NCBI GenBank assembly: GCA_017887885.1
Contig: JAGHHB010000042.1
Span: 1-34,381, forward strand
Direction: 5' to 3'
DNA from: Bacilli bacterium
Lineage (GTDB): Bacteria > Bacillota_I > Bacilli_A > RF39 > UBA660
DNA: 34,381 nucleotides
This document shows positions 1,685-24,323 of this stretch, piece by piece (within the stretch, counting starts at the first letter, position 1; each line of letters opens with the position of its first letter). A program made the position numbers and the translations under genes. A model generated the notes under the pieces. That model was given only the letters and a program-made list of their open reading frames with translations. It did no database searches and was not told the origin of the DNA.

Positions 1685-1903
1685 ATGAATTATACTGATG
1701 GTTTTAATCAAAGTATGTATGATGGTGATATTGATATAAATATTACTAATCAAAATGTTAATGATAATACTAATATGAATACTATGGGGGCAGCAGCAAT
1801 GGGAGGAACATCTATGATGGGAATGACTACTTGTCCTGTTGTTGAAACTCCTAGAGAAAGAGTTGTTTATAGAAATATTTATCATACTGTACCTCAAGTG
1901 TGA
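1685..1903 (+). CDS. 5' part of an interrupted CotD-like spore coat gene
   Basis: Reads as a 72-residue protein. The Asn/Asp/Gly/Met-rich N-terminus (TMGAAAMGG, MMGM) is followed by CPVVETPRERVVYRNIYHTVPQV-type coat sequence that stops abruptly at TGA 1901-1903. AGGAGG (1672-1677) precedes the ATG. Only codons 1-70 are ancestral; the last two residues and the stop come from the inserted element, whose left attachment site covers 1874-1916. The missing C-terminal half is at 13205-13336. Joining 1894 to 13205 through the CA core gives an uninterrupted 113-residue protein with a VPHVCP junction, a run typical of small His/Tyr/Cys-rich CotD-family coat proteins (family call by recognition only). 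A truncated 72-residue product could still be made while the element is present. Confidence 0.8.
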   Translation: MNYTDGFNQSMYDGDIDINITNQNVNDNTNMNTMGAAAMGGTSMMGMTTCPVVETPRERVVYRNIYHTVPQV

Positions 1904-1916
1904 TAATTTTTGATAG
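1874..1916 (+). other. attL (left element-chromosome junction)
   Basis: Chromosomal coat sequence up to 1894, core CA at 1895-1896, then the element arm AGTGTGATAATTTTTGATAG (1897-1916). The outer TTTTTGATAG is the inverted partner of CTATCAAAAA in attR. The alternative core GT (1898-1899) would also keep the coat reading frame, but the inverted-repeat centre fits CA and not GT. Confidence 0.8.
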
Positions 1917-1955
1917 ACTAAATAAAGATAAATAAGTGCAATTTGATTAAAACTA

Positions 1956-1984
1956 TTGACTTTATTATAAAAAATGTTTAGAAT
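1956..1984 (+). promoter_or_regulatory. SigA-type promoter of the element's metabolic operon
   Basis: TTGACT (1956-1961) and TAGAAT (1979-1984) are separated by exactly 17 bp and lie about 30 bp before the first operon gene. The promoter lies inside the element, 60 bp from attL, so the cargo carries its own expression signal and does not depend on the coat promoter. Confidence 0.7.
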
Positions 1985-2013
1985 AATTTGTGAAATGGGG
2001 GAGTTGATCTGAA

Positions 2014-3297
2014 ATGATTGATTATTCTAAAGTTGAACCTACTGATTGTGAAAATTTAGAATGTTTGACAAAAGTAAACAATCTCTTTGCTCTTTTCGAT
2101 ACTCCAGCTAACGTTATTTTTATTGATCAATTTAACTCTAATTTGAAAGAATTTAAAGATATTTTTAAGCAATATTTTATGCCGGAAAATATCTTTTTTT
2201 CATGCAAATGTAATAAAAGCCATGCCTTATTAGAGTATTCAGCAAGACAAAATTGTGGTGTTGAAGTATCAAGCAACTATGAACTAATTGATGCATTAAA
2301 ACATACTAAAAAAATAATTGCTACAGGTCCAGCAAAAGATGATACTTACTTGGAAAATTCCATAAATAATAAGGTTATTATTTCTGTTGATGATATTGAA
2401 GAACTTAAAAATATTCTTAAATTTAATAAGGAAACAAAAGTTTTATTAAGACTATCAAATTTACTTAATATAGTAAGTAGATTTGGAATTAACATTAATC
2501 AAATTGATGAGTGTTTAAAATTAATTGAAAATAGTAATGTTAAATTTTTAGGATTTTCATTTCATATAAACAATTATTCTTTAGATGATAGAGTAAATGC
2601 AATAAAACAGATAATATCAATAATTAAAAAGAAGAATTTAAAAATCAAGTATATTGATATTGGTGGAGGGCTGCCATCTAATTATTGTTCAAAACAAGAT
2701 TATGAGAATTTTATAAAAAATAATAATGAAAATATGTATTTTAAGAAGCATTTTATAGATGACTACTACCCATATTATAGTGATATAGCAAATGCGGATG
2801 CATTAAATTATATATTAAAAAATACTTGTGAAGAATTAAAGCAAAATAATATCGAGTTAGTTGTTGAACCCGGAAGAAGTTTATTAAGCAATGTTGGCGT
2901 TAGTATATATGAAGTTCAATATTTAAAAAAACTTTATAATGGAGATAATTTGATTGTAACAAATGGAAATATAAATTGTTTATCGGAGCAATGGTTTAAT
3001 AGTGATTATCTAATTGAACCAAAATTATATATACCAGATAAAACTAGGAAAAAGGAAAGGATATATGCTAGTATTTGTGGGAACTTATGTCTGGAACAAG
3101 ATATGCTTACATGGCGAAGGATAAAATTTGATTATATTCCTAAAAAAGGTGATTTATTAGTTTACTATAATACTGCAGGATACCAAATGGATTCAAATGA
3201 AAGTGAATTTCATAAAATTCCTTTAGTAAAGAAAATAATAGTGAGAAAAGATAATTTAAGATATATCATTGAGGAGGATGAGATATATGATAGTTAA
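2014..3297 (+). CDS. Fold-type III PLP decarboxylase (DAP/ornithine decarboxylase-like)
   Basis: Alanine-racemase-fold, PLP-dependent amino-acid decarboxylase of the LysA/Y4yA/SbnH group, 427 residues. The PLP Schiff-base lysine is Lys65 in SCKCNKS. A GFSFHIN strand, a GGGLP loop and EPGRSLLSNVG (phosphate and ring contacts) follow. C355-GNLC-LEQD363 corresponds to the CxxxCESxD substrate motif of the family, and a C-terminal YNTAGYQ segment completes the active site. The substrate cannot be read from sequence. It is not assumed to be meso-DAP, because an operon this specialised does not look like lysine biosynthesis. GGGGAG precedes the ATG, and the stop overlaps the next gene. First gene of the 2014-8949 operon. 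Confidence 0.8.
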   Translation: MIDYSKVEPTDCENLECLTKVNNLFALFDTPANVIFIDQFNSNLKEFKDIFKQYFMPENIFFSCKCNKSHALLEYSARQNCGVEVSSNYELIDALKHTKKIIATGPAKDDTYLENSINNKVIISVDDIEELKNILKFNKETKVLLRLSNLLNIVSRFGININQIDECLKLIENSNVKFLGFSFHINNYSLDDRVNAIKQIISIIKKKNLKIKYIDIGGGLPSNYCSKQDYENFIKNNNENMYFKKHFIDDYYPYYSDIANADALNYILKNTCEELKQNNIELVVEPGRSLLSNVGVSIYEVQYLKKLYNGDNLIVTNGNINCLSEQWFNSDYLIEPKLYIPDKTRKKERIYASICGNLCLEQDMLTWRRIKFDYIPKKGDLLVYYNTAGYQMDSNESEFHKIPLVKKIIVRKDNLRYIIEEDEIYDS

Positions 3298-4276
3298 TAA
3301 AGTTACAGATATAATTGGAAATACACCATTATTACAAATTAATATGAAGAATAATGATTGGAAAGTGTATTTAAAATTAGAAAAGTTTAATCCTGGTGGC
3401 AGTATGAAAGATCGTATGGCATTAAATATGATAGAACAAGCTGAAAAAGATGGAAGATTAAAACCAGGTGGAACAATAATTGAATCATCTAGTGGTAATA
3501 CGGCTATTGGTTTAGCAATTGTATCAGCAATAAAAGATTATCGTTTCATTGCGGTTGTTGATCATCATGCTTCAAAAGAAAAAATTGATATGATAAAAGC
3601 ATATGGTGGAGAAATAGTGGTAGTTGGAGATGACTATAAAGCTAATGAGGTAGCTGTTATTGAAAGAGAAAAAACTGCAAAGAGAATGTCAGAAGAAATG
3701 GAAAATGCTTTTTTTCCTAACCAAGCAGATAATTTTGACAATCGCTCAGCTTATACAGATACTTTAGCAAAAGAATTATTAGATGAATTAAGTACAGTTG
3801 ATGCTTTTTATGCAGCAATTGGTACTGGTGGATCTGCTTGCGGGACGGCATTAGGCTTAAAAAAGAGAGGTTCTAAAGCAACTATTAATGTTATTGAACC
3901 AGTTGGGTCTATTCTTTTTGGTGGAGAGGGTAAACCATACTTCCAATCAGGAACTGGAAATCCAATAAATGCTCCAATTCCAAAAATTATTGATTATAAA
4001 ATAATCGATAAAAACTTTTATGCCAAAGATGATGAAGCATTTAATACTTGTAGATATTTTGCTAAAAAATATGGTTTATTAATTGGTGGTTCAGCTGGTG
4101 GTGTTTTATTTAAAGCATTAGAGGATATAAATAGTAAAACTGGTTCTGGCACAGCTGTTATATTGCTTTGCGATGGTGGAGAAAAGTATTTGAACAATAT
4201 CTTCAATGATGAATGGATGAAAAGTAATAACTTAATTAATCATGATATAGATAAAATAATTGAAAATTGGATTTAG
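3287..4276 (+). CDS. Cysteine synthase/SbnA-like PLP beta-replacement enzyme
   Basis: Fold-type II PLP enzyme of the CysK/CBS family, 329 residues. Lys41 in NPGGSMKDRM is the Schiff-base lysine, SSSGNTAIG is the substrate loop, GTGGSACG binds the PLP phosphate, and GGSAGG lies near the C-terminus. Such enzymes replace the beta-substituent of serine derivatives with sulfide or amines: CysK makes cysteine, SbnA starts 2,3-diaminopropionate synthesis, and DcsD makes O-ureidoserine. Next to a decarboxylase, a ureohydrolase and ATP-grasp ligases, a non-cysteine role is more likely; this is inference. ATG 3287 is preferred over the upstream TTG 3269 because GAGGAGG (3271-3277) lies ahead of it and the family N-terminus (KVTDIIGNTPLLQI) fits. 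Overlaps the previous stop by 11 bp. Confidence 0.88.
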   Translation: MIVNKVTDIIGNTPLLQINMKNNDWKVYLKLEKFNPGGSMKDRMALNMIEQAEKDGRLKPGGTIIESSSGNTAIGLAIVSAIKDYRFIAVVDHHASKEKIDMIKAYGGEIVVVGDDYKANEVAVIEREKTAKRMSEEMENAFFPNQADNFDNRSAYTDTLAKELLDELSTVDAFYAAIGTGGSACGTALGLKKRGSKATINVIEPVGSILFGGEGKPYFQSGTGNPINAPIPKIIDYKIIDKNFYAKDDEAFNTCRYFAKKYGLLIGGSAGGVLFKALEDINSKTGSGTAVILLCDGGEKYLNNIFNDEWMKSNNLINHDIDKIIENWI

Positions 4277-4286
4277 GGAGTGATTG

Positions 4287-5420
4287 ATGATGAGATTTGA
4301 AAAATGGGAAGAGGAAGCATTTAATTATTTAACAAATTTATATGATAATTTTTTTAAAGAATTATCTGAAAGATGTAAAGAATGTTTTAGAATTGATTCA
4401 AAAGAATTGTTTTCAGAAGATGTTAAAGAATTAACTCCAGATGAAGAGCAGAAAATATATGATTTTTGGAAAAAGTATACAGATGATTTTGATATTGCAT
4501 ACCACAAGTATTACATTGATAGAACTGGCAAATTTGATGAAAAATTTATTCCTGATGATTTGTTTGTTGGTTATATTGATGGATATCTTAACAATAGAGC
4601 TATTGAACCAGGAATTGCTGACAAGAACTATTTTGACTTGTATTTAAAGGGGTTTAAACTCCCTGAAACCTATGTGCATTTAATCAATGGTGTTTTTGAA
4701 GATAAAAATTATAATATTATTACTAAAGAAGAAGCAATTAATATTTTATTGAAGCATAAGAATATAACTGTTAAGCCAAGTATGGCATCTTTTGGGGGAA
4801 AAGATGTTAAATTCTTTGATAATCCATCTGAAGAAGAAATAATAAATTATTTAGATAATTTAGAAAGTGATAATTTAATATTTCAAGAAACAATTAAACA
4901 GTCAAAAGAAACTGCAAAATTGCATCCAAATTCTTTAAATACAATTAGAATTATGACTTTGATTTTAGATAATGAAGTTAAAATATTACCAAGCGCTTTT
5001 AGAATGGGTGTAGGAAAATCTAAAGTTGATAATGCAAGTTTTGGTGGCATATATTGCAAAATAAATGAAGATGGCACATTATCAAATTTTGCATATGATG
5101 CTTTAGGAAAAAAATTTGATATTCATCCAGATGGTGGAAAATTCTCTGATATTAAATTTGATTTTATGGATAAGATAAAAGAACTCGTTAAAAAAGCAGC
5201 ACAAAGATTTCCACATTTTAGGTTAATCGGTTGGGATATAGCAATAAATGAAAATAATGAACCAGTAATAATTGAAGCTAATTTAACTATGAGTGGTATG
5301 GATGTTATTGAGACTATATGTGGTCCATTATTTGGAGAATATACGGAAAAAGTATTAAATGAAGTCTTTCTAGAAAAACATAGGAAGAAAACCAGTATGG
5401 ATATTTCCCAATATGTCTAA
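4287..5420 (+). CDS. ATP-grasp protein, sugar-transfer-associated type
   Basis: About 377 residues. An N-terminal helical, acidic region (1-100) is followed by an ATP-grasp fold. Recognisable parts are KPSMASFGGKDV (ATP-binding loop), HPNSLNTIRIMT, DNASFGGIYCKINEDG and the metal-binding IGWDIAIN...PVIIEAN end, as in the ATPgrasp_ST (sugar-transfer-associated) group. These enzymes activate a carboxylate with ATP and join it to an amine or similar nucleophile; the substrate is unknown. The start is chosen at ATG 4287, six bases after GGGAG (ATG 4290 is an alternative; TTG 4284 less likely). It follows the CysK-like gene by 10 bp and shares its operon. Confidence 0.75.
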   Translation: MMRFEKWEEEAFNYLTNLYDNFFKELSERCKECFRIDSKELFSEDVKELTPDEEQKIYDFWKKYTDDFDIAYHKYYIDRTGKFDEKFIPDDLFVGYIDGYLNNRAIEPGIADKNYFDLYLKGFKLPETYVHLINGVFEDKNYNIITKEEAINILLKHKNITVKPSMASFGGKDVKFFDNPSEEEIINYLDNLESDNLIFQETIKQSKETAKLHPNSLNTIRIMTLILDNEVKILPSAFRMGVGKSKVDNASFGGIYCKINEDGTLSNFAYDALGKKFDIHPDGGKFSDIKFDFMDKIKELVKKAAQRFPHFRLIGWDIAINENNEPVIIEANLTMSGMDVIETICGPLFGEYTEKVLNEVFLEKHRKKTSMDISQYV

Positions 5421-5434
5421 TAGAAGAAATGGTT

Positions 5435-5923
5435 ATGTTAAGTGAATTAATAAGTAGTGAAGATTGTAAAAAAATGTCATAGTTGTTGTACATTTTAACT
5501 AGATGAGCTATTAGATGCTCCTACCTTTATTAAAGAAATTAAAGATTATATTATTAAGAGTATAGATGCTAATATTAAATTAAAAAAATAAATAATGTAT
5601 TTGAAATAATTTTAAATAAAAAAGGTAGTTGTTATGTTTGCCCATTATTAAAAGAAAATGGTTGCTGTTTAGGGAGATATAAACCTTTTGATTGTGATTC
5701 TTGGCCGTTTTATGTTATGAAAAAAGATGATAACTATGTTATACCTATTTCAAACGATTGCCCAGTTTTTAATAACATACCAATACATAGGCTAGAATCA
5801 TTTGTAGAAAATAAATTTAAAAAGGAGGGGATGAAAATTATAAAGTAATACCCAGATATGATTACCGAGTATAATAGGAATTTGAAGATAGTATGTGTTT
5901 TAGATAAGAATTTATTTGATTGA
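5435..5923 (+). pseudogene. Decayed YkgJ-like cysteine-cluster gene
   Basis: Stitched frames read MLSELISSEDCKK, then CHSCCTF, LDELLDAPTFIKE, KKINNVFEIILNKKGSCYVC, NGCCLGRYKPFDCDSWPF, and finally YPDMITEYNRNLKIVC before TGA 5921. The spaced CxxCC, CxxC and GCCLGxYKPxDCxxxPF pattern is that of YkgJ/UPF0153 Fe-S or zinc cluster proteins, which can act as demethylases or accessory redox proteins. Four lesions are visible: +1 in the A-run near 5468-5474, TAA at about 5496, -1 in the A-run at 5582-5588, and TAA after MKIIK near 5849. Both stops interrupt otherwise continuous sequence, so this is true decay and not just homopolymer error. It sits in operon order with its flanking genes intact. Confidence 0.75.
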
Positions 5924-5937
5924 GGGAGTGGTAAAAT

Positions 5938-6915
5938 ATGGAAGATAGAGAAGAAGAATATATTTATGCTGGTATTCCAACTTATATGGGCGGAAATTTT
6001 ATCCAAGAAAATGAAATAAAAAAATATGATGTAGTTTTTCTAGGGGTACCCTGTGATTATGGTGCATCATATAGATTAGGAGCAAAGTATGCACCTAGAC
6101 AATTAAGAGAATATTCGTTTTGGGATAGGATATATGGAGAAGAGCTTTATGATTTAGACCATAATAAATATTTAAAAACTAACAATTTAAAAATTGCTGA
6201 TTTAGGGGATGTTTATGTTAATCCTACTAATCCTACTTTAAATCAAAATGCTATAACAGAAAAAGTTTATTCTATATCAAAGGATAGTTTCCCTTTAGTT
6301 TGTGGTGGTGATCATTCAATTACTTATGGAAGTTTTAGAGGTTTCCAAAGGGCGATGAAAGAAAAATATCCAGATTATGAAGTTGGTTTAATTCATTTTG
6401 ATGCACATCTTGATGTAGAAGATAAATATTTAAATATGCCAGATGTATGGCATGGAAATGTTTTTAGAAAACTAATTGAAGATAAATATTTAAACGGGGA
6501 AAATATGTATACTATAGGACCTCGTGGTATTGTTGGAAGAGAATGGTTTGATTATGTTAAAGAAAATAAAATTAATTTGTTTACTGCTAACTATGTAAAA
6601 GAAAATGGAATTTTAAATGTAATATATGATATTATTCAAAAAAATAAAAATAAAAGAATTAAGTTTTATATTACTTTTGATATTGACTGTCTTGATGTTT
6701 CATATGTATTTGGAACTGGTACACCTCAATGCAATGGACTAACACCATATGAATGTGATGAGGCATTAAGAAACTTACACGAATTAGATATAGCAGGATT
6801 TGATATCGTAGAGTTAAATCCAAAGTTAGATGATTCATATACATCATTTGTGATTGCTGAAGAATTAATTTATCATTTTTTAGCTTTTGGTATAAATAAA
6901 AGGAGCGCAAAATGA
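5938..6915 (+). CDS. Ureohydrolase (arginase/agmatinase family)
   Basis: Binuclear manganese hydrolase that removes urea (or a related one-carbon unit) from a guanidino compound, 325 residues. All metal ligands are present: His126 (GGDHS), Asp155/His157/Asp159 (DAHLD) and Asp248/Asp250 (FDIDCLD), followed by GTGTP. Arg/agmatine specificity cannot be told from these motifs. In the family the same fold makes hydroxyurea from N-hydroxyarginine (DcsB in D-cycloserine synthesis), a useful comparison given the CysK-like and ATP-grasp neighbours. GAGGGAG precedes the ATG, and it overlaps the next gene by 4 bp (ATGA). Confidence 0.88.
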   Translation: MEDREEEYIYAGIPTYMGGNFIQENEIKKYDVVFLGVPCDYGASYRLGAKYAPRQLREYSFWDRIYGEELYDLDHNKYLKTNNLKIADLGDVYVNPTNPTLNQNAITEKVYSISKDSFPLVCGGDHSITYGSFRGFQRAMKEKYPDYEVGLIHFDAHLDVEDKYLNMPDVWHGNVFRKLIEDKYLNGENMYTIGPRGIVGREWFDYVKENKINLFTANYVKENGILNVIYDIIQKNKNKRIKFYITFDIDCLDVSYVFGTGTPQCNGLTPYECDEALRNLHELDIAGFDIVELNPKLDDSYTSFVIAEELIYHFLAFGINKRSAK

Positions 6916-7883
6916 AAAAGATAGCATTATTATTTAATCTGAATAGACATAAATTTGAATATGAAACAGAATTTGATTCAGAACTAACAATTAATTCAAT
7001 ATTTGATGTTTTATCAAAGGATTATGAAGTTAAAAAGATTGAGGCAGATAAAGACTTTAAGTGGATTGATTCATTGGTAAAATATAAACCAGATTTAGTT
7101 TTTAATATATGTGAGGGATACTATGGACCGGCTAGAGAAGCTGTTTATGGTGCAATATTAGAACAATTTAAATTCAATTATTCTGGACCAGATAGTACTA
7201 ATTTATTAATGTGCCATAATAAGTTTTTAGTAAAGAATTTATTACAAGATTATATTATTGTCCCTAAGGGATATTGTATATGCAATAAAGAAGAAATTGA
7301 AAATCTTAAAGATATTTCATTTCCTATAATTGTTAAGCTTAATTCGGAAGGATCTAGCATAGGAATGAGCCAAAAATCAATAGTTAATAATTATGATGAT
7401 TTAAAAAAACAAGTTTTATATTTACTTGAAAAATACAAAAGAAGTGTGTTAGTGGAAGAGTTTGTAGATGGACAAGATATAAGTATGATTTATCTAGAAG
7501 GTATAGGTGCTTTGGGGCCTTGTTATGTTAATTGTGATTCATTATTTTATGATTATGAAATGAAAACAATAAAAGATGATACTGTTAAAATAGGACCAAT
7601 GAATGGAAATTATCAAGAATTAAAAGATATAGTAAATATAATTGTAAAAAGATTAGATATCAAAGGATATGCTAAAATAGATTTTAGGGTTAAAGAAGAT
7701 AAATATTATCTTATTGAAGTAAATTCACAGGTTAGTTTTCATCCGAATGGTGAATTTATTACTTGTGCTAAAACCGGGGGTTATACTTTTGATAAAATCA
7801 TATTGTTTATTGTAAAAAATGCATTAAAAAACAATATTAAAAGTAATTCAATAGGAATTGGAGTGATAAATGATGCTGGATGA
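6912..7883 (+). CDS. D-Ala-D-Ala-ligase-like ATP-grasp ligase
   Basis: About 323 residues with a Ddl-type layout: N-terminal Rossmann-like part (LVFNICEGYYGPAREAVYGAILEQ, compare NxxEG of Ddl), a central ATP-binding domain (VKLNSEGSSIGM, the flexible loop; VLVEEFVDGQDIS), and a C-terminal metal site (AKIDFRV...YYLIEVNSQVSFHPNGEF). Ddl enzymes join two amino acids using ATP. This one is shorter and diverged at the substrate loops, and its operon contains amino-acid-modifying enzymes, so I infer it ligates a non-standard amino acid. It is unlikely to be the cell-wall Ddl. It begins inside the ureohydrolase stop (4-bp overlap), indicating translational coupling. Confidence 0.8.
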   Translation: MKKIALLFNLNRHKFEYETEFDSELTINSIFDVLSKDYEVKKIEADKDFKWIDSLVKYKPDLVFNICEGYYGPAREAVYGAILEQFKFNYSGPDSTNLLMCHNKFLVKNLLQDYIIVPKGYCICNKEEIENLKDISFPIIVKLNSEGSSIGMSQKSIVNNYDDLKKQVLYLLEKYKRSVLVEEFVDGQDISMIYLEGIGALGPCYVNCDSLFYDYEMKTIKDDTVKIGPMNGNYQELKDIVNIIVKRLDIKGYAKIDFRVKEDKYYLIEVNSQVSFHPNGEFITCAKTGGYTFDKIILFIVKNALKNNIKSNSIGIGVINDAG

Positions 7884-8949
7884 AAAAATAATTGATCAAA
7901 AATTAGCCAGTAAATATAATAATTTGGTTAAAACAGATGATTTGTTGCCAATAAAGGTCACGGATTTTTATAAGAAAAAAGTTTTAGAAGAGATAAATAC
8001 GATTGGCAAAGGAGGTCCACTTTATAGATCGGTAGTCCCAACTATTGAAAAAATCAATGTAAAGACCAGTGTTGAGACGAGAGATTATGTTGAAGAAGAT
8101 AAACATAATCCAGTGAAAAATTGTGATTATATAATACAAAAATATGATGATAGACTTGTATTTATCATAACAGATGTATGTTTTGCTCATTGCCAATATT
8201 GTTTTAGAACTTATAATTTATCTCAATTTCAAAAAAGTAATTTAAAAGAAACTATAATAAATAAGGTTCACATTTTAAAAGATTACTTAAAAATAAATTC
8301 AAATATTAAAGAAGTTATATTTTCCGGTGGAGATCCCTTAAGTATTGACTATGAAAATTTAAAATATGCTTTAGAAGAGTTGAACAATTGGGAAATAAGA
8401 ATTCATACAAGGGCAATAGTTTATGAACCATCAGTATTTTCAAAACAAATAATTGAATTGTTAAGTGAACATAATGTTAGATTAGTGTTTCATATAAATC
8501 ATCCTTATGAAATTGATAGTGAAGTAGAAAATAAAATAAATGAAATAAGGCAAAGTGGTATTAGAATGTATTCTCAGTTCCCATTGTTAAGAGGGATTAA
8601 TGATAATTCAAAAGTTATAATTAAGCTATTAAATAAAATGGATGAATTATATGTAAGACCATTATCAATATTTATATCAGATCCTATATCTTATGGTGCG
8701 GTAAACAGAGTTTCTGTAATGAGAATAGAAAAAATAATGGATGAGGTAAATTGGGGTACACCATCTTGGATTAATTCTACCAGGTTTGTTATGGATACAA
8801 CAATAGGAAAAGTTAGAAGAGAAAATATAATAAAAAGAGAGGGAAAATGTTTAACATTTATGAGAGATGGCAAAACAGTTGAATATTATGATTTAGATGA
8901 TGGAATTGATGTACCGACAGATTTAAATAAATTGCTATGGAAAGATTAA
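7870..8949 (+). CDS. KamA-like radical SAM amino-acid aminomutase
   Basis: Radical SAM protein of about 359 residues related to lysine 2,3-aminomutase. Cys104, Cys108 and Cys111 (CFAHCQYC) hold the [4Fe-4S] cluster. FSGGDPLSI matches the family's SAM-contacting GGDPL, and Lys314 (TTIGKVRRE) is the likely PLP lysine corresponding to the GGGGK region of KamA. Such enzymes move an alpha amino group to the beta carbon of lysine, glutamate, ornithine or arginine, giving beta-amino acids used in peptide natural products. The substrate here is unknown; arginine is tempting because a ureohydrolase is two genes upstream. It overlaps the preceding ligase by 14 bp (ATG 7870 or 7873). Last gene of the operon. 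Confidence 0.82.
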   Translation: MMLDEKIIDQKLASKYNNLVKTDDLLPIKVTDFYKKKVLEEINTIGKGGPLYRSVVPTIEKINVKTSVETRDYVEEDKHNPVKNCDYIIQKYDDRLVFIITDVCFAHCQYCFRTYNLSQFQKSNLKETIINKVHILKDYLKINSNIKEVIFSGGDPLSIDYENLKYALEELNNWEIRIHTRAIVYEPSVFSKQIIELLSEHNVRLVFHINHPYEIDSEVENKINEIRQSGIRMYSQFPLLRGINDNSKVIIKLLNKMDELYVRPLSIFISDPISYGAVNRVSVMRIEKIMDEVNWGTPSWINSTRFVMDTTIGKVRRENIIKREGKCLTFMRDGKTVEYYDLDDGIDVPTDLNKLLWKD

Positions 8950-8986
8950 AAAAAATTAATAATAGTTTTAAAAAATAAAAGAAAAA

Positions 8987-8995
8987 TGTTATAAT
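8987..8995 (+). promoter_or_regulatory. Extended -10 promoter of rsgA
   Basis: TGTTATAAT is a perfect TGnTATAAT extended -10 in the 92-bp gap after the aminomutase gene, about 46 bp before the rsgA start. No good -35 is needed for this class. It means rsgA can be expressed separately from the operon. Confidence 0.6.
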
Positions 8996-9040
8996 AATAG
9001 TGAAATTCAATGAGATATTTTTAGAAATGGAGGAATTTAT

Positions 9041-10138
9041 ATGCCACATTATAATGCTTATGATAGTTTTAAAATAAAAAAGAGTATGGAAAAAAAGCAA
9101 AGAGCAAAGGCTAAAGCTTTTGGTAAAAAGAAAGAAGAAATAGATGGTTTTGTTGTCGAAAGTCAAGATAAATATGGTGTTGTTATTGAGGTAAGATATG
9201 ATGAGGCTTATATACTTTATGATGGGGAAATTATACTAGCTAAATTAAGAAAAGATATTAATTTAGTTTGTAATCAAGTGGTTTTTCCAGGAGATAAAGT
9301 CATATTAGACAAAAATAGCGATGACTATACTATCATTCATTTAGTGAAGAGAACATCCTTACTTTCAAGAACAAAGAAAGATAGTACTAGACTAAATGAT
9401 GTTGGTATTTCCAAAAATATTGCCTCTAATGTTGATTTAGCGGTTATTGTTGTAGCTGCAAAAGAACCACCATTACATCCTAAATTTATAGATAGATACT
9501 TAATGATATTGCAAAATAGTAATATTCCAACCATTATATGTTTGAATAAATGTGATTTAAAATCTTTTGAAGATGAAGAAGTTTTAGATATTTATAGAAA
9601 TTTAGGTATTACAGTAGTTGAAACTTCAACTTATAGAAATATAGGTATTGAAGAGCTAAAAAGTTTTTTGAAGGGGAAGCAAGCAATCTTTGTTGGAAAT
9701 AGTGGGGTTGGTAAATCATCATTAACTAATGCAATTATGGAAGATGATGAAATAAAAACTAGTCATGTAAGTGATAAAAGTAAAAGGGGTAGACATACTA
9801 CGACAACTTCAAAATATTATGTATGGGATGAGGATTCATCTATTATTGATACTCCAGGAATCAGAAGTTTAGATGTATCAACGTTTTCTCCAATTGAAAT
9901 TCAAGATTATTTTCCTGAGTTTAATGATTGGAAAGATAAATGTCGCTATAATGATTGCTTACATTTTAATGAACCATCCGATTCATGTCTTGTTAAACAG
10001 GGTGTTGCTAGTGGGTTAATAAGTCATGATAGATATGAAAGTTATTTGAGAATTATGAGTGATGTTTTGAATGTTAAAGATTATTCAGGAGTTTTAAATG
10101 AAGTATTACCAAATGATGTAAAAAAAAAATCAAGATGA
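9041..10138 (+). CDS. rsgA: Ribosome biogenesis GTPase RsgA, divergent
   Basis: Circularly permuted GTPase that aids late maturation of the 30S subunit. 365 residues: a lysine-rich N-terminal helix (KKSMEKKQRAKAKAFGKKKEE), an OB-fold (about 45-105), then G4 (LNKCDL) before G1 (GNSGVGKSS) and G3 (DTPGIRS), the permuted order that defines RsgA, and a C-terminal zinc site CRYNDCLHF...C. The basic N-terminal tail resembles the Gram-negative form more than the short B. subtilis form. It lies inside the recombinase element, so it may be a second copy beyond the core chromosomal one. Its own extended -10 promoter (8987-8995) and terminator (10171-10217) make it a single transcription unit. GGAGG precedes the ATG. 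Confidence 0.93.
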   Translation: MPHYNAYDSFKIKKSMEKKQRAKAKAFGKKKEEIDGFVVESQDKYGVVIEVRYDEAYILYDGEIILAKLRKDINLVCNQVVFPGDKVILDKNSDDYTIIHLVKRTSLLSRTKKDSTRLNDVGISKNIASNVDLAVIVVAAKEPPLHPKFIDRYLMILQNSNIPTIICLNKCDLKSFEDEEVLDIYRNLGITVVETSTYRNIGIEELKSFLKGKQAIFVGNSGVGKSSLTNAIMEDDEIKTSHVSDKSKRGRHTTTTSKYYVWDEDSSIIDTPGIRSLDVSTFSPIEIQDYFPEFNDWKDKCRYNDCLHFNEPSDSCLVKQGVASGLISHDRYESYLRIMSDVLNVKDYSGVLNEVLPNDVKKKSR

Positions 10139-10170
10139 AATAGATTTTTGAAAATATAATTTGAAAAAGT

Positions 10171-10217
10171 AATCATCCTATTATTTTTATTAAAATCAAG
10201 AATTTAGGATGATTTTT
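10171..10217 (+). terminator. Terminator after rsgA
   Basis: Perfect 10-bp stem AATCATCCTA/TAGGATGATT (10171-10180 with 10205-10214) followed by TTT, 33 bp after the rsgA stop. Confidence 0.7.
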
Positions 10218-10430
10218 ATATGGCTTAAAATTTTAAATTAATAGAGATTATCCTAAAACATCCTATAAAATAGGATGAATTTTGCAAGTGCAAAATAAGA
10301 AATATGTATCAATTTTTCTTATAAGGATAAAATTACTATTGATGCACATTCTTTTTATCATGCTTTTGTAGAATCCAAGAAAAATAATGCAAATTAGGAC
10401 GATTAAACAAATATACTAGCAAAATATGAT
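10218..10430 (+). other. Gene-free stretch with two short palindromic hairpins
   Basis: No convincing gene. It holds CATCCTA-TAAAA-TAGGATG (10259-10277), which repeats the stem motif of the preceding terminator, and immediately after it ATTTTGCA-AG-TGCAAAAT (10279-10296). A short open frame around 10306-10401 (reading ITIDAHSFYHAFVESKKN) has no start and may be a gene remnant. I see no further promoter until 10431. Confidence 0.5.
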
Positions 10431-10459
10431 TTGACAAATATTAATATATGAGCTAGCAT
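10431..10459 (+). promoter_or_regulatory. Promoter of the recombinase transcript
   Basis: Perfect TTGACA (10431-10436), 17-bp spacer, TAGCAT (10454-10459, four of six). The predicted start is near 10466, just before AAAGGAG (10468-10474). It would drive the short ORF, hairpin, 58-residue ORF and recombinase. It looks vegetative (SigA type), not sporulation-specific. Confidence 0.6.
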
Positions 10460-10483
10460 GTATCATTAAAGGAGATCATGTAT

Positions 10484-10531
10484 ATGGAAGTTGAAATTAA
10501 GATTTGTAAAGAGGCGACTGTCTATAAGTGA
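10484..10531 (+). CDS. Possible 15-codon leader peptide before the recombinase
   Basis: ATG with well-placed AAAGGAG (9 bp upstream) encodes MEVEIKICKEATVYK and stops at TGA 10529-10531. That stop lies inside the left arm of a hairpin (10527-10577), so ribosomes finishing this ORF would disturb the stem. It could be a regulatory leader or the stump of a longer lost gene. Function unknown. Confidence 0.35.
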   Translation: MEVEIKICKEATVYK

Positions 10532-10577
10532 TACTAAATTAATGGGCAATGTGATATTTACATGATTTAGTATTACT
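10527..10577 (+). repeat. Long hairpin in the recombinase leader
   Basis: AGTGATACTAAAT (10527-10539) pairs with ATTTAGTATTACT (10565-10577): 13 bp with one G-T pair and a 25-nt loop. No T-run follows, so it is not a standard terminator. It overlaps the stop codon of the 15-codon ORF. It could be an RNA regulatory stem or a DNA-binding palindrome. Confidence 0.5.
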
Positions 10578-10623
10578 AAAATTTATATTTTATCCATAAG
10601 CTTAAGTGAGGTGTACAAAATTT

Positions 10624-10800
10624 ATGGATAAGTACAAAATAAACTATATATTTAGTGAAGAAAAAGATATAAATGATATTTTAATAAATGTTTTAAACAA
10701 AGAATTAAAAAAGTATATTCAAATGATTTGTAAAAATGATAAAAGAGGGGTAATATCATCATGTGTGCGATTTTCTCTAAAAGGAGGTAAGAATTGTTAG
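10624..10800 (+). CDS. Small hypothetical protein overlapping the recombinase start
   Basis: 58 residues (MDKYKINYIFSEEKDINDIL..., ending SLKGGKNC), charged and mostly helical in appearance, no signal or membrane segment. ATG 10624 is preferred over GTG 10606 because GAGGTG lies about 10 bp upstream. Its last codons overlap the recombinase TTG (10794) and its ribosome site, so the two are translationally coupled. I do not recognise the family. A small basic/charged protein directly upstream of a large serine recombinase is a reasonable candidate for a recombination directionality factor or regulator, but that is only inference from position. Confidence 0.55.
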   Translation: MDKYKINYIFSEEKDINDILINVLNKELKKYIQMICKNDKRGVISSCVRFSLKGGKNC

Positions 10801-12362
10801 AGATTATAAGTAGGATATACAATGTTGGTATTTATATAAGATTATCTCGTGAAGATGATGATAAAGTGTATGAGAGTGAAAGTATTACAAATCAAAAGAG
10901 TTTATTACTTCAATATGTTAAAGAAAATAATTTAAGAGTTTATGATATTTATATTGATGATGGATATAGTGGAACTAATTTTGATAGACCAGCATTTAAA
11001 AGACTAATAAACGATATTGAATCTAAAAAGATAAATATGGTTATTACAAAAGATATGTCGAGACTTGGTAGAGATTATATTGGAACTGGAGAATTAGTGG
11101 AAAAGTATTTTCCATCTAAAGGAGTTAGATATATAGCAGTTACTGATAATATAGATACATTTTTAGATAACTCTAATAATGATATTGCACCATTTAAAGC
11201 AATAATGAATGATATGTATGCTAAAGATATTTCTAAAAAGATTAAATCTAGTTTAAGGGCAAAACAAAAAGAAGGTAAGTTTGTTGGTGGTAGAACTCCA
11301 TTTGGATATAATCAAGACCCAAATGATAAAAACCATTTAGTAATATATGAAGAACAAGCACTAGTTGTAAAAAGAATATTTGATATGTGTTTAGAAGGGT
11401 TAACATTCTTTAAAATAGCAAAACAATTAACTAATGAGGGGATAAAAACACCAGCTGGGTATTATAGTTTTGAATGGAAAAGTAATAAAACTATAAAATA
11501 TGGACAGTGGCATTCTAAAACAATAAGAGATATTTTGACAAATCAAATGTATATAGGGGATATGGTACAAAATAGAAGAAGTAAAGTTAATTATAAAGTT
11601 AAAAAAGTTATCAGGAATAATCCTAAAGATTATATAATTGTAGAAAATACTCATGAACCTATTATTGATAAAGAAACTTTTTATGAAGCACAAAAGAAAA
11701 TCCCTAAAAATGTAGGGAGAAATGAAAAGAAAGAAAATCATTTATTAGATGGACTTTTATATTGTGGCGATTGTGGGCATAGAATTTCTATACAAGCAAG
11801 AAGAAAAAAAGATAACAGATGTTATACCATTTGTAATTATTATCGAACTTATATAAAACAAAAACTTTGTACAACTCATTCAAATAATTATGAGAAGCTA
11901 GAAAAAGTTATAATTAATTCTTTAACTAATATGTGTTTAAATTATATTAACAAAGACAAAGTTAAAAATGCTGTATTAAACCATCTAACTGAAGACAACA
12001 AGATAAATAACAAAAAAGAGTTAGAAATGCTAACTAATGATATTAAACAAATAAATGATAATTTAGATATTATTTATATTGATAAGTTAAATAAAAAAAT
12101 AACTGAAGAACAATTTGAAAGGGTAAAAGCTAAGTTAGAAAATGACTTAAACATAAAACAAAAAAGGTATAATGAATTGAATAATGATATTACTAATACT
12201 CTTAATGAAGAATTTAAAAACAAAATGATTAATGAGTATATAAATAAATTTTTATCGATGAAAGAACCTAATAGAGAGTTAATAATTAATTTAATTGATA
12301 AAATAGAAATATTTGAAGATAAAACTATAAATATTAAGGTTAGTTTTAATAATTTTAGTTAG
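10794..12362 (+). CDS. Large serine recombinase (integrase/excisionase of the element)
   Basis: Site-specific recombinase that cuts attP and attB and rejoins them through a covalent phosphoserine. About 522 residues: N-terminal resolvase domain with catalytic Ser18 (YIRLSRED), DGYSGTNFDRPAF, and MSRLGRDYIGTGE; recombinase domain (about 165-290, GGRTPFGY); zinc ribbon with Cys324 and Cys327 (YCGDCG) plus later cysteines in CYTICNYY and KLC; then a coiled coil (about 395-480, Lys/Asn/Glu-rich). Same architecture as SpoIVCA/TnpX/TndX. Start is TTG with AAAGGAGG six bases upstream; no in-frame ATG fits. It is the only recombinase in the element and presumably acts at attL/attR. Confidence 0.95.
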   Translation: MLEIISRIYNVGIYIRLSREDDDKVYESESITNQKSLLLQYVKENNLRVYDIYIDDGYSGTNFDRPAFKRLINDIESKKINMVITKDMSRLGRDYIGTGELVEKYFPSKGVRYIAVTDNIDTFLDNSNNDIAPFKAIMNDMYAKDISKKIKSSLRAKQKEGKFVGGRTPFGYNQDPNDKNHLVIYEEQALVVKRIFDMCLEGLTFFKIAKQLTNEGIKTPAGYYSFEWKSNKTIKYGQWHSKTIRDILTNQMYIGDMVQNRRSKVNYKVKKVIRNNPKDYIIVENTHEPIIDKETFYEAQKKIPKNVGRNEKKENHLLDGLLYCGDCGHRISIQARRKKDNRCYTICNYYRTYIKQKLCTTHSNNYEKLEKVIINSLTNMCLNYINKDKVKNAVLNHLTEDNKINNKKELEMLTNDIKQINDNLDIIYIDKLNKKITEEQFERVKAKLENDLNIKQKRYNELNNDITNTLNEEFKNKMINEYINKFLSMKEPNRELIINLIDKIEIFEDKTINIKVSFNNFS

Positions 12363-12367
12363 AATCG

Positions 12368-12376
12368 TGATATAAT
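12368..12376 (+). promoter_or_regulatory. Extended -10 promoter of the NERD gene
   Basis: TGATATAAT, a perfect TGnTATAAT, begins six bases after the recombinase stop and 25 bp before the next ATG. It gives the NERD gene its own promoter. The transcript would have a very short leader with little ribosome-binding sequence. Confidence 0.5.
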
Positions 12377-12400
12377 TGATTTGGATGTGGTTTTATAGAA

Positions 12401-13180
12401 ATGATTAAAAGTTTTATAGAAGGAATTATAAATATATATTCAAATAATCCCAAACTATTATTAGAAACAATTATTTTAATAATATTATGTGTGTTAATAA
12501 AAATATATTATCCAAAATTTAGAGGATTTATGGGAGAATTTTGGGTAAAATTAGAATTAAGAGAATTACCTAAAGATAAATATATAGTTTTAAATGATAT
12601 TATGATAAAAGATGAAAAGGGAACTCATCAAATCGATCATTTAGTTTTATCTCGATTTGGTATTTTTGTAATTGAAATGAAAAATTATTATGGTTTGATA
12701 AAAGGAAAAGAAATTGATAATAAATGGTGCCAATATTTAGGAAAAAATAAAAGTTACTTTGTAAATCCTATTCATCAAAATTATGGACATATAAAATCTT
12801 TATCAAATTTACTTAAGTTAGATGATAAATATTTTATATCTGTGATATGTTTTTCTAATCAAGCAAAACTTGATGTTAAAAGTAATAATATAGTTACACA
12901 ACTTGATTATTTAAAAAATGAAATTTTAAAGTATAAAGAATTTCTTGTTGATAATGATATTAAAGAATTAGCAAAAATTATTATTCAGAACAATATTGAA
13001 GATAAGGCATTAAGAAAACAACATATAAAAAATGTTCATATTAAAATTAATCATGATAAAGAATTAGAAAATAATATGATATGTCCAAAGTGTGGTAACG
13101 GACTAGTTGAACGAAATGGTAAACATGGAAAATTTATTGGATGTTCTAACTTTCCAAAATGTAGATACATTAAGAAATAA
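12401..13180 (+). CDS. Membrane-anchored NERD nuclease-like protein with C4 zinc ribbon
   Basis: 259 residues. One N-terminal membrane span (about 17-35), then a NERD domain: GEFWVKLELREL, YIVLNDIM, GTHQIDHLVLSRFGIFVIEMKNYYG, with the QIDH...EMK pattern matching the D-ExK core of restriction-like nucleases. It ends in a topoisomerase-type zinc ribbon, CPKCGNGL...GKFIGCSNFPKC. NERD proteins are proposed DNA-processing enzymes and occur in mobile or defence contexts; the substrate is unknown. It is cargo between the recombinase and attR; its stop TAA is 24 bp from the attR core. Little ribosome-binding sequence is visible before the ATG. Confidence 0.85.
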   Translation: MIKSFIEGIINIYSNNPKLLLETIILIILCVLIKIYYPKFRGFMGEFWVKLELRELPKDKYIVLNDIMIKDEKGTHQIDHLVLSRFGIFVIEMKNYYGLIKGKEIDNKWCQYLGKNKSYFVNPIHQNYGHIKSLSNLLKLDDKYFISVICFSNQAKLDVKSNNIVTQLDYLKNEILKYKEFLVDNDIKELAKIIIQNNIEDKALRKQHIKNVHIKINHDKELENNMICPKCGNGLVERNGKHGKFIGCSNFPKCRYIKK

Positions 13181-13184
13181 AAAT

Positions 13185-13226
13185 CTATCAAAAAAGGGCA
13201 AGGACATGTATGTCCTATTAATACTA
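13185..13226 (+). other. attR (right element-chromosome junction)
   Basis: Element arm CTATCAAAAAAGGGCAAGGA (13185-13204), core CA (13205-13206), then coat sequence. CTATCAAAAA mirrors TTTTTGATAG of attL at the same 10-nt distance from the core. GGACAT-GT-ATGTCC (13202-13215) is also palindromic across the joint, but half of it is element and half chromosome. Confidence 0.8.
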
Positions 13227-13587: not shown

Positions 13588-16500
13588 TTGAAAAAATTTA
13601 TTATCTTAATTGCTCTTTTATTTTTTTGTCACGATGTTAAGGCACTTGAAGTCTTATTAAGAATAGATAATATTGATAATACTTATACTTATTATTATGA
13701 TAGTGAGCTGGGAAGAAATAGATACTTATATGCTAGTAAGTATATATTTAATAGTAATGTAGCTTATTGTTTGGAACTCGGAAAGAAGATCGAAAGTAAT
13801 ATTTATAATATGTCTAGTTCATTTGATGAAATTAATATGGATAGAGATGATATCGCCTTTATTAAACTTATTAGTTATTATGGTTATGATTATCCTCATC
13901 ATAATAGTGATAAATATTATATGGCTACACAAGAACTTATATGGAAAAGACTTTCTAATACTTCAGTTAAATGGGTCAAAGATTTAAATCCTTCGAATGT
14001 TATAGATGTATCTTTTGAAAAGAATGAAATTATGTCTTTAGTAAATAATCATTATGTAAAACCTTCTTTTGACAATTATGAAGTAGAGATGGTACTTGGT
14101 AAGGATTTAGTTATCACCGATACAAATGGTGTTCTAGAAAACTATGAAGTTGACAGTAAATATGCTAGAATTGATGGTAATAAATTAATTATAGATGGTA
14201 TGATAGATACTGATGAAATTATCTTAAATAAGAAAAATTATAATGACCGAGTTTTCTTTGTTTATAGTTCTGGTAATTCTCAAAAAATGTTGTCTTCGGG
14301 GAAGGTAGATAATGTAAGTAGTAAAATAAAAGTTAAAATAAAGAGTGGGAGTTTGACTATTGATAAGCGGGATAAAGAAAATAATAGTACTATTCCGCAA
14401 GGAGAGGCAAGTCTTTCTGGAGCAATATATGAATTATTTGATGAAGAAAAAAATCTAGTTGATTGCTTTATTGTAGGTAAAAAAAATACTATTGATAATT
14501 TGCCGCTTGGTAAATACTATGTTAAAGAAAAAGAAGCAAGTATAGGGTATTTACTTGATAATAATGTATATGAAGTTGAGGTTACAGAAGATGAGAATAA
14601 TATTAGTCTTACAGTTTACGAAGAGGTTATTAAAAGAGAGGTAGATATTTTTAAGGTTTTTGCAAGTGATAAAACGGGTATTTTAATAGGAGAGGTTGGG
14701 ATCATCTTTGAAGTATATAATAATGAAAATAAATTAGTGGATACTATTATTACTGATGATGATGGTTTTGCTAAAATTTTACTACCGTATGGTAGTTATA
14801 CATTTAAACAGATTAATAGTACTGAAAATTATTATAAGGTTGATGATTTTGTTGTTAAAGTAGATAGTTATGATGAAAGACCAATATATAAACTTTTATC
14901 TAATAGTGAAATTAAAGCAAGGCTTAAGGTCGTAAAGAAAGATTTGGCAACGGGAGAAAATATTATTAATTCTAATATCAGATTTAAGATATTTGACGTT
15001 AAGAATAATGATTTTGTTCGTTTTGAAATTACTTATCCAGAAAAAAAAGAGCTAGAAGTTTTTAGTGTTGATAAAAATGGAATTTTTGTTACTCCTTCAG
15101 CCCTTCCTTCAGGAGAATATATCTTATATGAAGTTGATGATATGATGGATGGATATTTATATAATAAAGATGGAGTAAAGTTTACTATAGGTGATGATGC
15201 TAATTTAATTAATGATAATGAATATGGAGTTATAGTTGAGGTTCCATTTTATAATAAAAGAGTTAGAGGAAATATAACTATTTTAAAATATGGTGAAGAT
15301 GTGGTTATAGAGCAGTCATATAAGTACAATAAAATATTATTAGAAGGGGTCAAATTTAATATTTATGCTTTGGAAAATATATATGAAAATGGCAAATTAA
15401 TATTTGAAGATGGAGCGTTAGTGGGAAAAGTTATTACTAATCAAGATGGTTTAGCAGAAATAAATGATCTTCCACTTGGAAAGTATGAAGTTAAAGAAAT
15501 TAGCTCTAGTAATGGTAATGTTATAAAAGATGAGGCATACACAGTTATTCTTTCTTATATTGATCAGTATACACCGTATGTAAATTATAAGCTTATAGTT
15601 AATAACTATTTACCTAAAGGGAAGCTTGTGATTAATAAATATGAAGCTAAAACAAACATCGGGATTCCTAATACATTAATAGAAATATGTAATTTTAATA
15701 ACGAAGTTGTCTATAGAGGGTATACCAATATTAGAGGTCAAATTATTTTAGATGATTTACTTTATGGTGAATATTATATATCGGAGATAGAAGCTAGCGA
15801 AGGTTATAGACTTCTCGAAGATAAAATTTATTTTAAAATAGATGAAAATATAAAAAATATTGATATATATAATGAACGATTTGAAGTTCCAAGTACGGGA
15901 CTAAATAATAATATTTATAATATTGTGTCTATTTCTTTATTGTTATTAGGTTTAGTGTTTGTTTTTATAAGAAGAGTAAAAATAAAGATACTGGGAGTTA
16001 TCTTTATGGTATTGGGTTTTGGTTATCATATTTTTAATTATTATTTATATATTAATGATTCATATAATAATGAGAAAAGTATTAATGCTGTTTTAGCAGA
16101 TAAGAATGAAAATATAGTAGATTCTAAATATAGTTATATTGGCTTTTTAGAGATTCCTTCTATAGGATTAAAAAGGGGTTTTTTAGATGAGAATAGCAAA
16201 TATAATGATGTTAAGTATAATATAGAAATTATTGACAGAAGTGAGAATGGAATAATTATGGCTGCTCATAATGGAAATAGCTATAATTCTTATTTTGAAG
16301 ATTTGAAAAAAATGGAATTGGGAGATGTAATATATGTCTGTTATAATAATGAGAAATATACATATATTTACAGTGATTACTATGAAGTTGCTAAAACTGG
16401 TTATGTCGATATATATCGTGATGATACAAAGAAAAATATTGTGTTAATTACTTGTAAGGATAGTGACAAGCAAAGTGTTTTTATTGGTTATTTAAAATAA
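13588..16500 (+). CDS. Thioester adhesin with SpaA repeats fused to a sortase domain
   Basis: 970-residue surface protein. Signal peptide (1-19); thioester domain with Cys61 (YCLELG) and Gln115 (ATQELIW), the pair that forms an internal Cys-Gln thioester for covalent host binding; several SpaA/Cna-B-like repeats (about 270-765, each with the LPxGxYxxxE-type end, e.g. LPLGKYYVKE, LPLGKYEVKE); sorting signal VPSTG (767-771); membrane span about 776-796, RRVKIK, second span about 803-823; and a C-terminal sortase domain (850-970) with His894 (AAHNGNS) and Cys956 (LITC). The usual catalytic Arg is replaced by Gln962. Two spans put the sortase outside, next to its own sorting signal. TTG start with GGGGAGG seven bases upstream; no other start fits the signal peptide. 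Confidence 0.85.
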   Translation: MKKFIILIALLFFCHDVKALEVLLRIDNIDNTYTYYYDSELGRNRYLYASKYIFNSNVAYCLELGKKIESNIYNMSSSFDEINMDRDDIAFIKLISYYGYDYPHHNSDKYYMATQELIWKRLSNTSVKWVKDLNPSNVIDVSFEKNEIMSLVNNHYVKPSFDNYEVEMVLGKDLVITDTNGVLENYEVDSKYARIDGNKLIIDGMIDTDEIILNKKNYNDRVFFVYSSGNSQKMLSSGKVDNVSSKIKVKIKSGSLTIDKRDKENNSTIPQGEASLSGAIYELFDEEKNLVDCFIVGKKNTIDNLPLGKYYVKEKEASIGYLLDNNVYEVEVTEDENNISLTVYEEVIKREVDIFKVFASDKTGILIGEVGIIFEVYNNENKLVDTIITDDDGFAKILLPYGSYTFKQINSTENYYKVDDFVVKVDSYDERPIYKLLSNSEIKARLKVVKKDLATGENIINSNIRFKIFDVKNNDFVRFEITYPEKKELEVFSVDKNGIFVTPSALPSGEYILYEVDDMMDGYLYNKDGVKFTIGDDANLINDNEYGVIVEVPFYNKRVRGNITILKYGEDVVIEQSYKYNKILLEGVKFNIYALENIYENGKLIFEDGALVGKVITNQDGLAEINDLPLGKYEVKEISSSNGNVIKDEAYTVILSYIDQYTPYVNYKLIVNNYLPKGKLVINKYEAKTNIGIPNTLIEICNFNNEVVYRGYTNIRGQIILDDLLYGEYYISEIEASEGYRLLEDKIYFKIDENIKNIDIYNERFEVPSTGLNNNIYNIVSISLLLLGLVFVFIRRVKIKILGVIFMVLGFGYHIFNYYLYINDSYNNEKSINAVLADKNENIVDSKYSYIGFLEIPSIGLKRGFLDENSKYNDVKYNIEIIDRSENGIIMAAHNGNSYNSYFEDLKKMELGDVIYVCYNNEKYTYIYSDYYEVAKTGYVDIYRDDTKKNIVLITCKDSDKQSVFIGYLK

Positions 16501-23743: not shown

Positions 23744-23769
23744 AGAATAATACTTTTGGGTATTATTCT
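23744..23769. terminator. Bidirectional terminator between the methyltransferase and cotJC
   Basis: Perfect 10-bp stem AGAATAATAC/GTATTATTCT (23744-23753 with 23760-23769) around TTTTGG. A-rich sequence to the left and T-rich sequence to the right give a T-tract for both strands. It overlaps the cotJC stop. Confidence 0.8.
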
Positions 23770-24323
23770 AAATTCATTTTTTTATATTCATCATATAGTT
23801 CTTTAAATCTTGTGAAATGGACGATCTCTCTTTGTCTTAAGAATAGTAATGGACCGATAACATCGGGATCATCTGTTAAATTTATCAAGTTTTCGTATAC
23901 GGCTCTAGCTTTTTGTTCGGCGGCCATATCTTCTGATAGATCGGCCAATGGATCACCAGTTGTGGCAAAATAGGCAACAGTAAAAGGAACTCCATTAGCA
24001 TCAGTTGGGTATAATCCTTTACCATGTTCGGCATAGTGGGAGTCTAATCCAGCTTCTCTAATTTCTTTCATACTAGCATCTTTCATTAGTTGATAGATCA
24101 TCGTCGATATCATTTCTACATGTGCTAATTCTTCTGTTCCAATATCTGTAAGTAGAGCTTTGCCTTTGTCAGTTGGCATTGTATAACGTTGATTTAAATA
24201 GCGAAATGCAGCGGCTAATTCTCCATTAGATCCACCATATTGTGTTACTAAATATTTGGCCATTCTTAAATCTTTCTTTTTAATGTTAATTGGATATTCT
24301 AAAGATTTAACATATTTCCACAT
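23763..24323 (-). CDS. cotJC: Spore coat protein CotJC (manganese-catalase type)
   Basis: About 186 residues (family about 190). Ferritin-like Mn-catalase fold with the expected dimanganese ligands: Glu in NGELAAAFRYLNQRY, Glu/His in GTEELAHVEMI, Glu in AAEQKARAVYENL, and Glu/His in RQREIVHFTRF. It is a coat component and probable peroxide-destroying enzyme of the spore. The start is set at ATG 24323 by GGGAGGTG eight bases upstream and by the family N-terminus MWKYVKSLEYP; the longer frame from 24368 runs through the neighbour. One-base overlap (TAATG) with the cotJB-like gene means coupled translation. Confidence 0.93.
   Translation of the reverse strand: MWKYVKSLEYPINIKKKDLRMAKYLVTQYGGSNGELAAAFRYLNQRYTMPTDKGKALLTDIGTEELAHVEMISTMIYQLMKDASMKEIREAGLDSHYAEHGKGLYPTDANGVPFTVAYFATTGDPLADLSEDMAAEQKARAVYENLINLTDDPDVIGPLLFLRQREIVHFTRFKELYDEYKKMNLE

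Follow-up and report, generated by a model that had tools for sequence, protein, structure and literature searches.

Positions 1 to 34,381 of contig JAGHHB010000042.1, from the assembly GCA_017887885.1 of a Bacilli bacterium, were analysed over their full length (34,381 nucleotides; the window). They carry six enzyme genes (A to F) followed by a gene for a second copy of the 30S-assembly GTPase RsgA (RsgA2). Enzymes A to F very probably make a small molecule derived from amino acids. The best explanation of the locus, which we favour with some reserve, is that these seven genes form a biosynthetic unit that needs no nonribosomal peptide synthetase (NRPS), travels as cargo of a serine-recombinase element and yields a product that would bind the 30S subunit.

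Gene content and conservation of the unit

Gene families were assigned from a listing of open reading frames (ORFs) together with Pfam and NCBIfam scans of the proteins of the window. All six enzyme ORFs lie on the plus strand within 2014 to 8949, at the places and in the families given by an earlier, sequence-only reading of this DNA. The unit reads as follows:

2014 to 3297, plus strand: A, fold-III pyridoxal phosphate (PLP) decarboxylase (PF02784, Orn_Arg_deC_N; PF00278, Orn_DAP_Arg_deC)
3287 to 4276, plus strand: B, CysK/CBS/SbnA-like PLP beta-replacement enzyme (PF00291, PALP)
4284 to 5420, plus strand: C, predicted ATP-grasp carboxylate-amine ligase (PF14397, ATPgrasp_ST, the 'sugar-transfer associated' family)
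5475 to 5911, plus strand: X, frame-broken remnant of a gene for a CxxCxxCC-like cysteine-cluster protein, split over two frames
5938 to 6915, plus strand: D, ureohydrolase of the arginase/agmatinase superfamily (PF00491)
6912 to 7883, plus strand: E, Ddl-like ATP-grasp ligase (PF07478, Dala_Dala_lig_C)
7870 to 8949, plus strand: F, KamA-family radical S-adenosylmethionine (SAM) aminomutase, its catalytic residues in line with those of lysine 2,3-aminomutases
9041 to 10138, plus strand: RsgA2, second, long RsgA (30S-assembly GTPase), with a proposed role in self-protection (PF03193)

B most likely starts at the ATG at 3287, giving an 11-nt overlap with A. The sequence-only reading had the genes overlapping or nearly touching under one promoter, in a unit ending at 8949. 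Close packing is seen at four of the five junctions but not between C (end 5420) and D (start 5938), where a 517-nt gap holds the broken gene X. A single promoter is unproven, promoter-like sites being about as frequent in the window as in shuffled sequence, and none of the terminator-like sites of the window lies inside an intergenic gap. Nor does the unit stop at 8949: the RsgA paralog belongs to it. The sequence-only reading had overlooked both this paralog, our best lead on the target, and the decayed accessory gene X.

To follow the set beyond this genome, we searched 84,980 species genomes with F and recovered 25 loci. Besides the window, 12 of these hold the complete set of A to F with RsgA2, in gut Bacilli, Clostridia and one odd bin, so the set is conserved together elsewhere and is not due to chance; this was the genome-neighbourhood comparison that the sequence-only reading had proposed. 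The 12 sister sets are 56-89% identical to that of the window and have differing flanks. Gene order is A-B-C-D-E-F-RsgA2 in 10 of them, some with extra genes interspersed, and C is shifted in front of A in two (L023 and L031). Mean pairwise identity per gene is 67-78%, and the pairwise distances of the seven genes are intercorrelated (Spearman 0.58-0.90). Nonsynonymous divergence (dN) of 0.015-0.039 against synonymous divergence (dS) of 1.1-1.2 indicates purifying selection, for the only three gene pairs with estimable dS. Within the host's family a strong match to F occurs in 3 of 145 genomes (G000, G081 and G128), and the same-genus genome G140 is without F. Sequence conservation, differing flanks and rarity in the host family together imply horizontal spread of a working unit. 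A literature search for the same gene set found nothing.

Accessory genes vary among the sister loci. The cysteine-cluster gene between C and D is intact in L013, L018 and L024, whose ORFs are 41-56% identical to remnant X, and a shorter relative is present in L027. A second ATP-grasp gene is present in L013 and an additional radical-SAM gene in L011 and L015; a small gene judged acetyltransferase-like by eye, with no Pfam hit, is shared by L011 and L013. L025 carries a second gene for a fold-III decarboxylase, one for an aminotransferase-like enzyme and one for a 743-residue protein without assigned function. Such coming and going of tailoring-type genes is typical of natural-product families. 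In strain D16-51 (L026, 8106-11080) F stands alone, adjoining a prenyltransferase/cyclase-like toroid protein, and this strain may provide the aminomutase from culture.

The sequence-only reading had allowed that these might be ordinary enzymes of lysine, cysteine or arginine metabolism. Against the curated NCBIfam models, A scored 131 bits on lysA (cut-off 298), B 221 on cysK (351), D 148 on agmatinase (174), E 128 on Ddl (243) and F 150 on the KamA family (199), and C matched no NCBIfam model. With all five scores below the housekeeping cut-offs and C unmatched, the enzymes are not plain lysine, cysteine, arginine or cell-wall orthologs. More specialised models were not reached either: B scored 250 bits on the 2,3-diaminopropionate synthase SbnA (TIGR03945, cut-off 350), and F scored 150.5 on EpmB, the enzyme of elongation factor P (EF-P) beta-lysylation (TIGR03821, cut-off 369; its best NCBIfam model by a hair), and 115 on the arginine 2,3-aminomutase BlsG (TIGR04468, cut-off 600).

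Catalytic motifs are intact. A aligns to DapDC and retains the PLP-lysine region, EPGR and the catalytic cysteine region; it has FslC and BtrK-type similarity, with a weak match to BtrK structures. In B, Lys42 and the ESSSGNT loop are invariant across the family; O-ureidoserine synthase (3x43) matches at 147 bits, and many CBS/CysK chains rank higher, at up to 185 bits. The metal motifs of D (GGDHS, DAHLD and DIDCLD) are intact in alignment to guanidinobutyrase, which is among its nearest solved structures together with 'probable agmatinase 2', guanidinopropionase and proclavaminate amidinohydrolase. E has lost the usual Ddl N-terminal motif, as judged by eye. For C, an AlphaFold model built on an alignment of 15 homologs had a predicted local distance difference test (pLDDT) score of 83, against 36 without the alignment. 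Its top Foldseek matches include LysX/ArgX, YwfE/BacD and Ddl, with template-modelling (TM) scores of about 0.35-0.45 by query length, so the resemblance is at fold level only; by this modelled fold C is predicted to be a carboxylate-amine (C-N) ligase. The pair of C and A recurs in Shinella, with acyl carrier protein (ACP) and AMP-binding genes, and in Rhizobium.

The only solved relative of F by sequence is lysine 2,3-aminomutase (LAM; 2a5h). The CxxxCxxC cluster (Cys104, Cys108 and Cys111), Arg113 and the PLP lysine Lys314 are invariant in the alignment, and Asp271 and Asp309 line up with LAM D293 and D330. In LAM both aspartates hold the side-chain cation, and the arginine binds the carboxylate. 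Immediately ahead of the PLP lysine, F and BlsG have the same two-residue deletion. The retained aspartates and the BlsG-like deletion suggest a cationic substrate, likely arginine, lysine or ornithine, and make glutamate unlikely.

RsgA2 and the predicted product

RsgA2 matches PF03193 at 175 bits, and its GNSGVGKS and DTPG motifs and zinc ligands (C301, C306, H308 and C316) are invariant. It is not the housekeeping copy, which is encoded on a separate contig (G000:C69) by a 302-residue frame about 36% identical to RsgA2. In each of the 18 sister loci with E and enough downstream sequence, F is followed, after 10-1402 nt, by a long RsgA2 gene; the four loci in which F stands by itself (L026, L028, L029 and L030) have neither A to E nor RsgA2. 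RsgA2 is thus tied to the pathway and not to the aminomutase as such. L027 has F, a cysteine-cluster gene and RsgA2, with no E directly upstream; its contig begins 1.5 kb upstream. RsgA2 is rare, occurring in 2 of 395 and 1 of 392 genomes with the window's own genome counted.

RsgA clamps helix 44 (h44) at the decoding centre (PMC9032327), and deletion of rsgA sensitises E. coli to gentamicin (PMC10295648). We tentatively propose that the product acts on the 30S subunit and that RsgA2 serves as self-protection. Extra long RsgA copies elsewhere offer some parallels: one is beside a methyltransferase/acetyltransferase gene between Tn3 transposons, one adjoins fosM and one is near acetyltransferase genes in Vibrio.

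Other extra copies were seen in three further settings. On a plasmid of Streptomyces NBC_00162 (L080, 18014-21101), rsgA has an overlapping start and lies in an NRPS cluster with a 2-oxoglutarate/Fe dioxygenase and a prolyl oligopeptidase. On a Vibrio coralliilyticus plasmid (L074, 5595-7026) an extra rsgA is overlapped by an RNHCP-domain gene, and in a sister genome (L058, 6040-11994) an orphan long RsgA, 65% identical to RsgA2, sits in an island of GNAT, NUDIX, RNHCP, HAD, phosphatase and APH-like genes. The presence of RNHCP near RsgA in both of the latter may point to a functional link.

The most plausible product is a beta-amino acid joined by ATP-grasp enzymes, and substrates and steps could be ordered as follows. 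F would act on a cationic amino acid (arginine or lysine), shifting the amino group from the alpha to the beta position, and D would remove urea from a guanidino group. B would convert an activated serine to a beta-substituted alanine, of the 2,3-diaminopropionate type or an N-alkyl analogue. The two ligases C and E would couple the pieces through amide bonds, and A would decarboxylate an amino acid or amide-linked intermediate to an amine. These steps would yield a small polycationic pseudopeptide able to bind the 30S subunit, as negamycin or the tuberactinomycins do, with RsgA2, a second 30S-binding GTPase, keeping the producer's own subunits working.

Several results weigh against this proposal. 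Its main weakness is the lack of an exporter: a Pfam scan of the operon and 50 flanking proteins revealed neither a conserved exporter nor a conserved regulator. Secreted antibiotics seldom lack these, and the product may instead act inside the cell. No SbnB-like dehydrogenase that would release diaminopropionate is present, all operon genes being assigned to other families, and the substrate of the aminomutase is read from its residues alone. Loss of rsgA sensitises E. coli also to cefotaxime (PMC10295648), so the RsgA effect is not specific to 30S drugs. Long plasmid copies of RsgA in Roseomonas, Deinococcus, Bosea and Peptoclostridium have neutral neighbours, which makes the resistance context suggestive but not general. 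No report of RsgA in self-resistance came up in a literature search; the only paper found that lists rsgA reports a duplication in the berninamycin producer, outside the cluster.

The missing exporter would suit a cationic small molecule that acts inside the cell, either polyamine-like or attached as a group to a ribosomal component, with RsgA2 as its matched 30S-assembly factor; nothing would be secreted, and the system would tune ribosome maturation and not kill competitors. Fold-III decarboxylases and ureohydrolases typify polyamine routes, protein modification is known from ATP-grasp enzymes such as RimK/LysX, and the EF-P modification enzyme EpmB is narrowly the best model for F. We consider this explanation unlikely: F and the set are rare, horizontally moved and lacking from the same-genus genome, unlike a core translation function, the operon encodes neither an acceptor protein nor an EpmA-like transferase, and its accessory-gene variation resembles product diversification. 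EF-P modification by an EpmB ortholog was considered and rejected.

It is also improbable that the set is an addiction or chemical-defence module of the element, in which a small molecule poisons translation within the cell, or within phage-infected cells, and RsgA2 is the antidote. Carriage on an element with a recombinase, the strict linkage of RsgA2 and the lack of an exporter would all fit such a module. For most other copies, however, carriage on the same element is not evident, a search of viral contigs with F, RsgA2 and B as queries gave no relatives (phage records gave only distant KamA relatives), and we know of no precedent for a module of this kind.

A siderophore or metallophore pathway of the staphyloferrin or opine kind, combining an SbnA-like enzyme, a decarboxylase and ligases, was considered and rejected as very improbable. 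The score of B on the SbnA model, the FslC/BtrK-type similarity of A and the cysteine-cluster protein of some operons speak for it, but there is no NRPS-independent siderophore (NIS) synthetase, no SbnB-like dehydrogenase and no recurrent transporter in the flanks, B falls short of the SbnA cut-off, and the linked ribosome GTPase would be left unexplained. A catabolic operon for arginine or lysine that merely lies beside RsgA was likewise rejected and can hardly be right: ureohydrolases, decarboxylases and aminomutases do occur in amino-acid catabolism, but a synthase and two ligases that consume ATP are out of place there, no enzyme reaches an equivalog cut-off, and RsgA2, not the housekeeping copy, is linked in every informative locus.

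Returning to a 30S-binding product, it is possible, though not probable, that the unit represents a new antibiotic family of uncultured gut Bacilli and Clostridia, namely beta-amino-acid pseudopeptides assembled by ATP-grasp enzymes without an NRPS, spread horizontally and equipped with RsgA2 as a new form of self-resistance that would protect or repair the decoding centre. Gut Bacilli with genomes of 1-1.5 Mb are seldom counted among makers of natural products, and cluster finders that look for NRPS or polyketide synthase (PKS) signatures would overlook this operon. If the proposal is true, it would open a way to a new class of small molecules that are produced within the gut and act on the ribosome, and the RsgA paralog would be a protection protein, a role also suggested by some RsgA copies on plasmids and by the one in the Streptomyces NRPS cluster.

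The mobile element and its insertion site

Insert bounds were taken from alignment of the window to contig G140:C17 of the same-genus genome. This alignment bears out the view that the operon is cargo of a mobile insert:

1894 to 13203, no strand assigned: integrated mobile element of about 11.3 kb, not present in G140:C17, where the flanks are joined
1685 to 1893, plus strand: 5' part of the interrupted CotD-like coat gene, the remainder of which resumes at 13204
10794 to 12362, plus strand: large serine recombinase of the element (CcrB/CcrC/XisF type; PF00239/PF07508/PF13408)
12401 to 13180, plus strand: element-borne protein with a NERD nuclease domain and a Top1 zinc ribbon (PF08378/PF01396)

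The ends of the element are imperfect inverted sequences, TTTTTGATAG (1907-1916) and CTATCAAAAA (13185-13194). In G140 the CotD-like gene, identified by eye, has an uninterrupted reading frame across the site. Among the flanking proteins of the sister loci, the commonest families are integrases (three) and serine recombinases (two).

Elsewhere in the window, CotJB and a manganese-catalase-fold (CotJC-like) gene lie at 23763-24814, in a genome of 1.25 Mb. Downstream of the element, 13588-16500 encodes a 970-residue surface protein with a thioester domain, five SpaA repeats, a VPSTG-like sorting motif (by eye) and a C-terminal sortase domain, possibly a sortase and its substrate in one chain.

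Comparison with known systems

As the sequence-only reading had held, the set fits neither D-cycloserine nor staphyloferrin B: B is not closest to O-ureidoserine synthase, its score lies below the SbnA cut-off, and SbnB is missing. With D-cycloserine synthesis (DcsD/DcsB/DcsG) it shares the association of a CysK-like enzyme, a ureohydrolase and an ATP-grasp ligase, but it lacks the arginine hydroxylase, acetyltransferase and racemase and adds an aminomutase, a decarboxylase, a second ligase and RsgA2. With staphyloferrin B (SbnA/SbnH) it shares an SbnA-like enzyme and a fold-III decarboxylase, without SbnB, NIS synthetases or a transporter. BtrJ and BtrK are paired in butirosin biosynthesis, and the pairing of ATP-grasp C with fold-III decarboxylase A resembles that module; the Shinella relatives of the pair have an ACP, whereas the present operon has none.

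Among plasmid records, the nearest KamA-like relatives of F are radical SAM proteins of rhizobial symbiotic plasmids, which, unlike F, have neither A to E nor RsgA2 annotated alongside. These genes (L062, 9834-13077; L063, 11935-13693; L065, 9700-13035) are 44-45% identical to F and sit with a LysE exporter or an amino-acid permease, sometimes with a YqcI/YcgG protein.

The tuberactinomycins viomycin and capreomycin contain building blocks of the diaminopropionate and beta-lysine types and target the ribosome. Blocks and target would be alike in the pathway proposed here, whereas the tuberactinomycins are NRPS products. In its logic the proposed pathway would be analogous to negamycin biosynthesis (the neg cluster of Kitasatospora). 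No N-N-forming heme enzyme of the KinJ/NegJ type was recognised in the operon, in which no intact gene is unassigned (the sequences were not compared directly), and a CysK-like enzyme, a ureohydrolase and a decarboxylase are present instead. The genes for negamycin combine an ATP-grasp ligase with beta-lysine formation, as the present operon is predicted to combine ATP-grasp ligases with an aminomutase, and they direct the synthesis of a 30S-binding cationic pseudodipeptide (PMC12154649, PMC9290621, PMC8097410).

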